Shown: one piece after another, positions 59,821-63,798 of the stretch
How the letters are laid out: every line of letters begins with the position of its first letter
Numbering within the stretch: the stretch's first letter is position 1
DNA from: Helicobacter monodelphidis
GTDB taxonomy: Bacteria > Campylobacterota > Campylobacteria > Campylobacterales > Helicobacteraceae
DNA: 64,000 bases
Reading direction: 5' to 3'
Assembly (NCBI RefSeq): GCF_003288845.1
Contig: NZ_NHYN01000001.1
Coordinates: 124,001 to 188,000, forward strand
Program-made: the position numbers and the translations under genes
The notes under the pieces: model-generated
The model's input: only the letters and a program-made list of their open reading frames with translations
Told to the model about the DNA's origin: nothing
Databases searched by the model: none

Positions 59821-59844
59821 CATTAGTTATTATTAATTACTAAA

Positions 59845-59871
59845 AGTAACTATTATATATTAATAGTTACT
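59845..59871. promoter_or_regulatory. Perfect 27-base palindromic operator-like site (copy 1)
   Basis: AGTAACTATTA (59845-59855), TATAT spacer, then TAATAGTTACT (59861-59871): perfect 11-base arms. Read leftward it contains the TATATAATAGTTACT string shared with the promoters of the eexN-like, parA and yopX-like genes. Here no intact gene follows on either side; the relic lies to the left and the eexN-like gene ends to the right. Confidence 0.7.
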
Positions 59872-59892
59872 AATGTATGGCAGTATTAAAGA

Positions 59893-60234
59893 TTATTCTA
59901 GAGTAAATCCTTTTTCCTTTTTCTCGTCTCTAAGCCTTTGCATTGTTTCCATCATACTTTCTTGCGGTTCGGATTTTCTATTGTTTGCTTTATGAGCATT
60001 TTCACAATCTAAAAATTCATTGCTAGGATTTCCATTTAAAGATTTTTCTAACTCTTTCGATGTTTTTTCACTATTTTTTGGAAACTTTTTCTTACATTCT
60101 GTAACTTTTGCTTCCAACTCCTTAGCATTTTTTGGATCAGAATAATATTCCACAGATTTTGGCTCACTAGAGCAAGCAGAAAATACACCAGCAATAATTG
60201 CACCTAATAAACCTAATTTAACCGCTTTTTTCAT
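59893..60234 (-). CDS. EexN/TrbK-like entry-exclusion lipoprotein
   Basis: 113 residues. A signal peptide ends in lipobox GVFSAC (Cys 21). SVEYYSDPKNAKELEAKVTECKKKF is the EexN-type opening, and FLDCENAHKAN has the later cysteine. Entry-exclusion lipoproteins stop a cell that carries a conjugative element from receiving another copy. It has its own promoter-like box at 60260-60275. It is the last gene of this minus-strand unit. No conjugation machinery genes are in the window. Confidence 0.72.
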   Translation of the reverse strand: MKKAVKLGLLGAIIAGVFSACSSEPKSVEYYSDPKNAKELEAKVTECKKKFPKNSEKTSKELEKSLNGNPSNEFLDCENAHKANNRKSEPQESMMETMQRLRDEKKEKGFTLE

Positions 60235-60259
60235 TTTTTTTACCTTTTTGTTAATTTAA

Positions 60260-60275
60260 AGTAACTATTATATAT
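60260..60275 (-). promoter_or_regulatory. Shared promoter/operator box upstream of eexN-like gene (copy 2)
   Basis: Plus-strand AGTAACTATTATATAT; on the minus strand this is ATATATAATAGTTACT with a TATAAT -10 at 60267-60272, 26-30 bases before the lipoprotein ATG. A TTGTTAAT motif and ATTAATATATA flank it, as in the other copies. Confidence 0.7.
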
Positions 60276-60300
60276 TATTGTTTATTAATATATACAAAAA

Positions 60301-61524
60301 TTACCTTGTAATATCTTGTTCTTTGTATGCAATGTGATCAGATTTAAAGGTGTCAAGTTTTTTGTGAAAATCAGGCATACTTAGCTGTTTTTTCACTTCA
60401 TCAAGACCTTTATTTAAATAAATATCATTAAAATCGCTCATTCCTTTTTCCGCTTCTTTGTTGGTGATTTGCGGGATGATGATTTTAATATCAGGGAATT
60501 TTTTTTGGATTTCCTTTGCAGTTTCTACTCCAATATTAGAAAGCCCTTGTAATTCTCTTTTTTTGTCATTGTCTGCTATTAAAGTGATAGGAGTGTTTTG
60601 AAATTTAGCTTTCAGAACTTCAACAATTTTTGGTAGGTTTCCAGCATCTACACCCATAATTACAGGTTTGTTGAGTGCTTTATAAATTGTTGCTGCAGTA
60701 GCAAAGCCTTCTGCTATAATAAATTCTTTGCAATACTCCAAATTTTTAGCTCCTACGATATGAAAACAACCTGATTTTTTCGCGGAATATTCTATACCCT
60801 GTTCTTTTTCATCTTTGGTTCTTATGATTCCGATAATTTTATCTCCATTGGGGAAGATTCTTTGGACTGACCATATCTTACCATTTTCGTCCTTGAGAGG
60901 AATAAGCAGAGACCCTCTATTATCTTGTTTAAGATAAAAATTTTCATTGAATCCTTTTTTGTTTAAGTATGGATGGTTAGAATATGCCCAGTGTGCATTT
61001 TGATATTCTTCTTCAATTTTAAGAGCAGTTTTTTCTTGCAATTCTAAAATTTCTTGTTCCTTATTTTTTGTAGGGGCTATAATTTTTTTTTGATTAAGAG
61101 CTTGATAATTAGTAATATCTTGTTTTAGCTCTAAAGGCATTTTCCAATTCTCTTTAATGCCTGTCTTAAAATTTTGAATAAAGCCTGCAGGATATTCATC
61201 TAAAAAACCACTATAAGCTCCGCTTTTTTCTCTACCCTTATCGGTAATAGTTTTTACTCTATGAATCTTTCCATCCATGATAGGTGAAGCATCAATAATT
61301 AATCCATGATTTTCTAAAGCATTTTTAAAAGCAGAAAGTATTTCTTGCTCATCAAATGAAAACGATTTTTTTTGTCTTGGATATAACCATTGCGAAAAAA
61401 TATTTTTGTCTAACTTCTTTGGGGCAAACCATTTTTTTTCTTTATCGTCCCACATTGCTCCTAACAGTCTTGCTTTTTCTTTGTCTTTAAACGGAACATA
61501 AAGATAAATTCTTTTTTGTGGCAT
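60301..61524 (-). CDS. Plasmid primase-like protein (DUF5710 plus TOPRIM)
   Basis: 407 residues. Residues 6-32 (YLYVPFKDKEKARLLGAMWD...KWFAP) form a DUF5710-type module, common at the N-terminus of mobile-element DNA-processing proteins. Residues about 180-230 form the lead to the catalytic core (NHPYLNKKGF, GSLLIPLKDENGKIWSVQRIFPNG). Residues about 268-345 are a TOPRIM fold: FIIAEGFATAATIYKAL with the catalytic Glu and ITLIADNDKK with the DxD-type acidic pair. This is the layout of TraC/phage P4-type plasmid primases without the helicase. Probably makes primers for the transferred strand. Confidence 0.75.
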   Translation of the reverse strand: MPQKRIYLYVPFKDKEKARLLGAMWDDKEKKWFAPKKLDKNIFSQWLYPRQKKSFSFDEQEILSAFKNALENHGLIIDASPIMDGKIHRVKTITDKGREKSGAYSGFLDEYPAGFIQNFKTGIKENWKMPLELKQDITNYQALNQKKIIAPTKNKEQEILELQEKTALKIEEEYQNAHWAYSNHPYLNKKGFNENFYLKQDNRGSLLIPLKDENGKIWSVQRIFPNGDKIIGIIRTKDEKEQGIEYSAKKSGCFHIVGAKNLEYCKEFIIAEGFATAATIYKALNKPVIMGVDAGNLPKIVEVLKAKFQNTPITLIADNDKKRELQGLSNIGVETAKEIQKKFPDIKIIIPQITNKEAEKGMSDFNDIYLNKGLDEVKKQLSMPDFHKKLDTFKSDHIAYKEQDITR

Positions 61525-61535
61525 ATTTTATCTTT

Positions 61536-61700
61536 TTATCTATTTAAAGATTGGGTTTTATCCACTGTAATTTCTTTATCAAATTGTTTTTTATTTAATT
61601 TTTTTTTGAAGAAATCATTCAGTTTTTGTTTAAAAAATGATGGTTGTTTTTTTTCATAGTCCTCTCTAGCTCTTGAGTAAGAATCAGCAAATGTTAACAT
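61536..61700 (-). CDS. Small basic protein, unknown
   Basis: 54 residues from ATG 61700 (MLTFADSYSRAREDYEKK...), ending 12 bases before the primase-like gene. The same frame is open further up to about 61758 (...KNLSEIVNKDIGSI) and may start there at a non-ATG codon overlapping the upstream gene. Lysine-rich, helical, no signal. Not recognised; it could be a small accessory protein of the element. Confidence 0.45.
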   Translation of the reverse strand: MLTFADSYSRAREDYEKKQPSFFKQKLNDFFKKKLNKKQFDKEITVDKTQSLNR

Positions 61701-61728
61701 TATTGAACCAATATCTTTATTGACTATT

Positions 61729-62697: not shown

Positions 62698-62698
62698 A

Positions 62699-63262
62699 TC
62701 ATTTCTCCTTTGTAATAAAACTTAAAAGCTTTTGGTATTCATTGAAAAAATTTGTGTAGCTTAATCTTGAAAGATTATTTTCATTATAGAGTTCTGTAAA
62801 AGAAGCTCCGCTACTTGTTGAATTTCTGATAATTTTTGAAAACTTAAAAAAGAAAAGATTCAAGTCTGTAAAATTACTATCAAGCGTTTCACAGATTTGA
62901 TTTTTTTCTTTATCATCTCTGTAATCTGTAACTAGAATACAAACTTTATTACTATTGCCTATTTCGTTTAAAGTTTCTAATGTCCTCAGTAAAGAATTAT
63001 AGTCGCTAGTGCAAGGAACAATAATGTAATCACTTTCTTTAACGATTTCCAATATACCCTTTTCTACAAAACCACCAAAATCATAAACGCAATTATCTAT
63101 TTTTTTTGGAGTCAGTAAAATTTTTGCTTTTTGTGGATAAATCTGTTCTATAATAGAATTATCATTGCTTTGCAGGAAGTATCCCAAATCTTTAGCAATT
63201 GAAAAAGCAAAAGGAGTTTTACCAACACCACCTTTTTTGTTTATAACAGATATAATCATCAC
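62699..63262 (-). CDS. parA: ParA-family partition ATPase
   Basis: 187 residues. Deviant Walker A KKGGVGKTPFAFSIA at residues 8-22, followed by the Walker B-like CVYDFGGFVEKGI near 58-70, and YIIVPCTSDYNSLLRTLETL. The motif has Pro-Phe-Ala after KT, where Thr-Ser/Thr is usual; other ParA relatives vary here. It segregates plasmids or positions other cargo. Only the small RHH gene follows in place of a ParB. Confidence 0.85.
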   Translation of the reverse strand: MMIISVINKKGGVGKTPFAFSIAKDLGYFLQSNDNSIIEQIYPQKAKILLTPKKIDNCVYDFGGFVEKGILEIVKESDYIIVPCTSDYNSLLRTLETLNEIGNSNKVCILVTDYRDDKEKNQICETLDSNFTDLNLFFFKFSKIIRNSTSSGASFTELYNENNLSRLSYTNFFNEYQKLLSFITKEK

Positions 63263-63282
63263 ATTGTCCTTTTGTATTAATT

Positions 63283-63300
63283 AATAGTAACTATTATATA
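63283..63300 (-). promoter_or_regulatory. Shared promoter/operator box upstream of parA (copy 3)
   Basis: Plus-strand AATAGTAACTATT (63283-63295), a perfect 13-base palindrome, overlaps the -10 TATAAT of the minus strand (63293-63298). It lies 21 bases before the parA ATG, with AAAGGA in between. Confidence 0.72.
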
Positions 63301-63321
63301 CTATTAATTATTAATATATAT

Positions 63322-63346
63322 TAAAAGTTAATTAAATTAACTTTTA
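63322..63346 (-). terminator. 12-bp inverted repeat across the yopX-like stop codon
   Basis: TAAAAGTTAATT (63322-63333) and AATTAACTTTTA (63335-63346) are perfect arms around one base. It covers the stop codon of the YopX-like gene at 63337-63339 and lies upstream of the parA promoter box, so it may end yopX transcription. Confidence 0.5.
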
Positions 63347-63678
63347 TCATGAATATTACCTATTACTTCAACACAAAAAGAATCTTGCTGTGTATAAATA
63401 AAAAGATTTTCAACTATCTCTTGTGTTTTTGTATCTAAGACATAGAAACAGTTATACTTAAAAGCAACGACAAAAGGGAATGTATCACAACTTATAATAT
63501 CCCCTTCATAAATCTTTTTGCCATTCTTATCGTAAAACCCTGTCCAGAGTTCAATTTCTAACCTGTCATCGTTTATCGGAATGAGATTGACTTTACCTCT
63601 TTCAAATTCTACATGCATTTCCATAAAGGCATTTGCTTCTTTATTCCATATTCTATAATCAAAATCTTTTAGTTTCAT
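63337..63678 (-). CDS. YopX-domain protein
   Basis: 113 residues. YRIWNKEANAFMEMH at the N-terminus, ELWTGFYDKNGKKIYEGDIISC in the middle and CVEVIGNIHDK at the C-terminus are the hallmarks of the YopX family, found on phages, plasmids and ICEs. Role unknown. It has its own promoter box at 63699-63714. Confidence 0.88.
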   Translation of the reverse strand: MKLKDFDYRIWNKEANAFMEMHVEFERGKVNLIPINDDRLEIELWTGFYDKNGKKIYEGDIISCDTFPFVVAFKYNCFYVLDTKTQEIVENLFIYTQQDSFCVEVIGNIHDKS

Positions 63679-63698
63679 TTGTGCCTCATTTGTTAATT

Positions 63699-63714
63699 AA
63701 TAGTAACTATTATA
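63699..63714 (-). promoter_or_regulatory. Shared promoter/operator box upstream of YopX-like gene (copy 4)
   Basis: AATAGTAACTATT (63699-63711) overlapping a minus-strand TATAAT (63709-63714), 21 bases before the YopX ATG. The bases on both sides (TGTTAATT, then ATTAATTAATAA) also repeat at the parA and eexN-like copies. Confidence 0.72.
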
Positions 63715-63798
63715 TATTATTAATTAATAACTATATATTAAAATTAATTTTAATTAACTAATGTTGCTCTGTTTCGTGGATGTTGCCGATTTATTACA

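Follow-up and report, generated by a model that had tools for sequence, protein, structure and literature searches.

We propose that a block of DNA recurring at the promoters of eexN, parA and yopX in a chromosomal plasmid remnant of Helicobacter monodelphidis is probably a portable promoter-operator shared among genes of the conjugative pTet plasmid family, which occurs in both Campylobacter and Helicobacter, with a single plasmid protein switching all of them. The remnant lies in a stretch of 64,000 nucleotides (assembly GCF_003288845.1, contig NZ_NHYN01000001.1, positions 124,001 to 188,000, forward strand), referred to here as the window, and all coordinates are those of the window. By analogy with omega of plasmid pSM19035, the block would be the operator for the ribbon-helix-helix (RHH)-like partition protein encoded after parA, a reading to which we assign a probability of about 0.5. 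We infer that the palindrome within the block is the operator that this protein binds, and that a fourth site, lying between convergent genes, is a promoterless binding site that may serve as a centromere.

One block at three promoters

The promoters of eexN (60257..60272), parA (63282..63298) and yopX (63698..63714) are all on the minus strand, with TATAAT boxes at 60267-60272, 63293-63298 and 63709-63714 whose first base lies 36-39 nt 5′ of the start codons; transcription starts were placed from the positions of these −10 boxes. The longest word common to the three promoters is an exact 15-mer, TATATAATAGTTACT, and a common word of at least 15 nt arose in none of 2000 composition-matched simulations, the maximum being 13. 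At parA and yopX the −10 box runs into the palindrome TAATAGTAACTATTA, which is perfect over 15 bp at both (63282-63296, TAATAGTTACTATTA, and 63698-63712, respectively), while at eexN the box is followed by AGTTACTTTAAATT, a degenerate copy. An earlier reading of the window from its letters alone (the sequence-only reading) had placed the same palindromic block on all three −10 boxes; the common 15-mer bears out the sharing of a block, and the palindrome itself does not extend to eexN. This degenerate eexN form is also kept in the plasmid of H. rodentium. The block common to the promoters spans about 70 bp at parA (about 63275-63345), to which the yopX block is identical at 62/68 positions and the eexN block at 50/59. 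Each promoter carries one palindrome, and several units, non-contiguous, are found only at the fourth site.

A hairpin in the leader RNA was considered as the role of the palindrome and rejected, because half of the palindrome should lie upstream of the expected start. Separately, the longest exact palindrome in the window, TAAAAGTTAATTAAATTAACTTTTA, is perfect over 25 bases; it lies at 63322-63346, where yopX ends, just upstream of the parA block.

Recurrence in the genome and in intact plasmids

An AT-rich background as the source of the motif is rejected by counts across the genome and across the order. With up to two mismatches, AATAGTAACTATT has 12 copies in the window against 4.4 expected (the largest count in 100 shuffles was 10). 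Allowing up to one mismatch, it occurs at seven places in the 1.99-Mb genome, four of which fall within the 3.9 kb at 59842-63711, where about 0.014 would be expected. The longer 18-mer TATAATAGTTACTATTAA, with up to two mismatches, is found at six places in the genome, four of them here and the other two inside an lptD-like gene, the latter being dismissed as chance matches. Among 399 genomes of the order, a 22-mer form with at most one mismatch is present only in the H. monodelphidis genome itself, in H. rodentium ATCC 700285 and in Helicobacter sp. MIT 11-5569. Furthermore, TAGTTACT is the top-enriched intergenic 8-mer both here and in the H. rodentium plasmid (six copies each against 0.1 expected), and the TAGTTAY unit is over-represented in the intergenic DNA of five of the six elements tested, the exception being the one from genome G083.

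The plasmids of H. rodentium and MIT 11-5569 appear to be circular, their ends overlapping by 95 and 99 bp, and have lengths of 38124 and 38366. In both, the block stands before parA, before a DUF5131-yopX operon located between topB and parA, and before eexN, and the fourth site lies between eexN and the convergent gene hyp20741. The search of the genome and related plasmids supports the sequence-only reading: the motif lies far above its AT background rate and on the −10 box of several genes, and intact relatives have the block before the corresponding genes, as an operator shared by a plasmid regulon should.

The arrangement beside parA is modular, with the order block-yopX-block-parA here, block-DUF5131-yopX-block-parA in H. 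rodentium, and block-eexN-virB6 fragment-block-parA in H. apodemus and H. mesocricetorum; the yopX block here is preceded by the 3′ end of a yopX of the H. rodentium type. Cargo seems to arrive with, or to recombine into, the par promoter and to take its control. As the gene set varies (eexN, with yopX or DUF5131-yopX as cargo), the earlier suggestion of a regulon for the vegetative state of the element is a guess.

In several plasmids (L013 20520-20615, L017 7100-7204 and L080 14065-14150), a piece from the start of a VirB6-type gene of a type IV secretion system comes after eexN, and plasmid pCNZW441b1 has three copies of eexN. It seems that eexN moves as a cassette that has picked up the VirB6-type fragment.

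The fourth site

The fourth site (59803..59890) has a core at 59845-59871 composed of AGTAACTATTA-TATAT-TAATAGTTACT, placed inside a longer inverted repeat, ACATTAGT...ACTAATGT, and the plasmid homology of the region starts at 59803, just outside the site. The sequence-only reading had described the core as a perfect palindrome of 27 bases, a description that fails at the centre: the 11-bp arms form a perfect inverted repeat around 5 nt that are not self-complementary. That reading also saw no intact gene for this copy. In intact plasmids, as seen in pTet and H. rodentium, the site lies between the convergent genes eexN and hyp20741; with this position kept in pTet and the sequence matched in 156 Campylobacter plasmids, it is improbable that we are dealing simply with a promoter that has lost its gene. 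The site is a candidate centromere or terminator.

The 27-bp core is inverted relative to that of the H. rodentium plasmid (L069, about 8108-8134), with TATAT against ATATA at the centre and collinear flanks: a small inversion between the 11-bp arms. In the H. apodemus plasmid, iteron arrays of TATGTCAATTTATATTATATC repeats are located upstream of hicB and an AAA gene (L080 25560-25800), and TTGACTTAAAT words are enriched in the intergenic DNA of pTet, of the H. rodentium genome and of G083; these arrays and words are candidates for a replication origin or centromere.

The parA operon and lineage versions of its palindrome

The RHH-like protein (90 aa; 62425..62697, minus strand) is encoded by the second gene of the parA operon, behind a ParA-type partition ATPase (62699..63259, minus strand; 186-187 aa) that carries an N-terminal Walker motif, KKGGVGKT, matches the PHROG ParA-like family (E 4e-13) and is without an N-terminal helix-turn-helix (HTH) DNA-binding domain. 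A small ParA with Walker A and no N-terminal HTH, together with a palindrome over the parA promoter, are features of type Ib partition. The alignment-based AlphaFold model of the RHH-like protein shows an extended stretch followed by two helices (52-62 and 69-84). The gene adjoins parA in all relatives examined, and relatives of the protein are present in 229 plasmid records, nearly always annotated as hypothetical among the matches listed. Its closest relatives, 89-100% identical, are in H. monodelphidis itself, H. rodentium and MIT 11-5569, the three carriers of the 22-mer. The sequence-only reading had named this protein as one candidate regulator, and it is the best candidate: its gene comes directly after parA in one operon and never apart from it, and no other plasmid DNA-binding candidate was recognised in the remnant. 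The protein is retained in this genome, in which matches to the relaxase and to the plasmid's TraY-like protein were not found.

In all lineages examined a palindrome lies on the parA −10, in different versions. H. apodemus and H. mesocricetorum have a different palindrome, TTAATGTTATACATTAA, at both parA and eexN, and within each plasmid these two blocks are identical at 93/99 (H. apodemus) or 83/95 (H. mesocricetorum) positions, whereas their alignment to the blocks of the other lineages is hardly above that of shuffled sequence. The Campylobacter plasmids have GTATATAATATTATAC at parA, and in pTet palindromic DNA again covers the parA −10 (near pTet position 7630), besides AGTTAY sites at eexN and topB and in the gap between the convergent genes. 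The parA operator changes version in step with the strand predicted to face the DNA in the RHH-like protein, whose residues we take to be placed as in CopG and Arc: HVIV/HIIV for the present protein and that of H. rodentium, HLVT in the apodemus type, NLVV in Campylobacter and HMVV in G083/G077.

A model for the block and its alternatives

We propose the following model. A dimeric plasmid repressor would bind the AGTTACT units around −12 to +4 and so block RNA polymerase. The RHH-like protein would in this way keep down the parA operon that encodes it, as well as eexN and the cargo inserted beside parA, which have copies of the operator, and it may double as the centromere-binding protein. This model is consistent with the same unit being found at separate promoters both here and in H. 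rodentium (parA, yopX or DUF5131-yopX, and eexN) and with one common unit being carried by the parA and eexN promoters of H. apodemus. The sequence-only reading had likewise taken the palindrome on the −10 for a shared operator; recurrence at the same genes in intact relatives favours this, and the non-palindromic eexN copy does not.

Several points weigh against the model. The eexN copy keeps the −10 and AGTTACT and has lost the palindrome, and AGTTACT, present in the eexN and topB leaders of pTet, is missing from the parA promoter of that plasmid. The RHH-like protein matches RHH_7 (E 0.0025-0.012) and MobC_2 (E 0.002) below the cut-offs, a sequence search of the PDB returned no significant RHH match, and a Foldseek search with its model, whose mean predicted local distance difference test (pLDDT) score is 70 (57 from the single sequence), found nothing useful. 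The agreement between protein and operator versions is confounded by shared plasmid ancestry. Finally, the palindrome could bind a host factor, the block could be shared through mere duplication of promoter DNA with the cargo, and the role of centromere could belong instead to the iteron array found upstream of hicB.

Such duplication is the core of an alternative in which recombination has copied a strong constitutive promoter, the block, together with cargo, the palindrome having no regulator and the direct repeats both reflecting and aiding the gain and loss of modules beside parA. Direct copies of the block do stand on both sides of cargo, in the remnant as well as in H. rodentium, H. apodemus and H. 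mesocricetorum, and their similarity reaches 60-100 bp beyond the palindrome. Campylobacter promoters generally combine an extended −10 with periodic A/T stretches and have no −35 box (PMC3656092, which reports 58 transcription starts on pTet). Duplication explains the sharing of the block, but it leaves the conserved palindromes and the fourth site unexplained: a constitutive promoter needs no palindrome on the −10 in each lineage, let alone a different one per lineage, and the site between the convergent genes has AGTTACT arms yet serves no gene. Moreover, AGTTAY units recur at the eexN and topB leaders of pTet-type plasmids, and these leaders are not recent duplicates of the parA promoter. 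We consider this explanation unlikely. Slightly less likely again is that the palindrome is the operator of some other regulator, either an unrecognised plasmid protein or a factor of the host, for instance a nucleoid protein. In its favour, the match of the RHH-like protein to RHH families is weak and the plasmids encode further DNA-binding candidates, the TraY-like and Rha-like proteins; however, the TraY-like gene was not found in the present genome, where the blocks are intact, and a host factor is argued against because the motif has exact copies only in those plasmids whose RHH-like protein is closest.

The nature of the fourth site is separate from the question of promoter copies, and the site might be a bidirectional terminator of the convergent genes that binds no protein. 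Its position between eexN and hyp20741 in pTet and H. rodentium would suit this role, as would the folding of the pTet version, in which either strand forms a long A-U hairpin (z −3.7 and −5.7). The versions of the remnant and of H. rodentium, though, fold only modestly better than shuffles (z −1.3 to −2.9), the site has no T run following a G-C stem, and the AGTTACT arms are common to the promoters, while termination needs none; we consider a terminator rather unlikely.

Returning to the RHH-like protein as repressor, a bolder extension, which we offer as a speculation with the odds well against it, is that the partition protein doubles as the master repressor of a modular conjugative plasmid. 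Cargo would join the regulon by inserting itself between two par promoter-operator copies, and joint change of operator and protein would give each lineage a private regulatory code that may also set incompatibility.

The remnant and its genes

To judge from sequence similarity, the region is a decayed, mosaic chromosomal remnant of a Campylobacter pTet-type plasmid rather than the mobile element of the earlier description. It is about 79% identical in DNA to such plasmids, most of the pTet-related genes encode proteins 67-89% identical to those of pTet, and the homology runs past the end of the window into the VirB11-VirB4 genes. The SNF2-type gene is cut to 217 aa, and the relaxase (MobP1) had no match in the genome in a search of unproven sensitivity. 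Two chimeric open frames (L010 5779-6972 and 4800-5354, on contig C43, partly beyond the window) are fusions: in one, the N-terminal part of VirD4 leads into a phage PAPS reductase, and in the other, the N-terminus of a phage portal runs into the end of a DUF5131 gene. Both resemble junctions left by plasmid-phage deletions. A resolvase site was rejected as the identity of the block, since the sites are dispersed before unrelated genes, unlike a single res locus; the intact plasmids encode a serine resolvase, and the present genome has only resolvases of 41-48% identity, on other contigs.

Besides the parA operon, the genes served by the block are eexN (59893..60234, minus strand), encoding an EexN-family entry-exclusion lipoprotein (NF033894, 38.6 bits, cut-off 33), and the cargo gene yopX (63337..63678, minus strand) of the YopX family (PF09643, 35.9 bits, cut-off 22.4), which lies between two direct copies of the block. 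In the metagenome-assembled genome of Helicobacter sp. SUG33, a chromosomal parA-RHH pair (L076 16913-17416) has its Walker motif deleted (INKKGKDLGY) and is another decayed copy of an integrated par locus.

Comparison with known systems

A literature search by title and abstract, which did not cover the original pTet sequence papers, found no report of a shared promoter in pTet-type plasmids. These plasmids spread tetracycline resistance in Campylobacter, and a shared operator, if true, would explain matched levels of partition, entry exclusion and cargo, give the small RHH-like protein a function, and predict incompatibility by operator type.

The nearest precedent is omega of pSM19035, an RHH ParB whose parS sites overlap the promoters of copS, delta and omega, so that several promoters are repressed by the one protein that also partitions the plasmid (PMC9499535). 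The arrangement here is similar in having a small protein beside a small ParA and binding units repeated over separate promoters of one plasmid, and a comparable dual role is what we propose. It differs in its units, 15-bp AT-rich palindromes or AGTTACT pairs as opposed to 7-10 contiguous WATCACW heptads, in its genes, which include entry exclusion and cargo where those of omega serve copy control, and in that the RHH-like protein has no detectable sequence match to omega. In the type Ib system of TP228, ParG represses parFG via an operator upstream of the genes (PMC7308502). As in ParF-ParG, parA and a small RHH-like gene form one operon here, but ParG is reported to act on its own operon and on the parH centromere, whereas the operator-like block is also found at eexN and yopX. 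The backbone is that of pTet of C. jejuni 81-176 (NC_006135), whose proteins are 87% (ParA), 72% (RHH-like), 77% (toprim) and 74-89% (VirB8-VirB11) identical to those here, although the sequence of its parA palindrome differs and the window holds a truncated chromosomal remnant with no relaxase match. The parts are of known kinds, and what appears to be new is that, within the pTet family, a par-type operator would also serve entry exclusion and cargo, with a version for each lineage.

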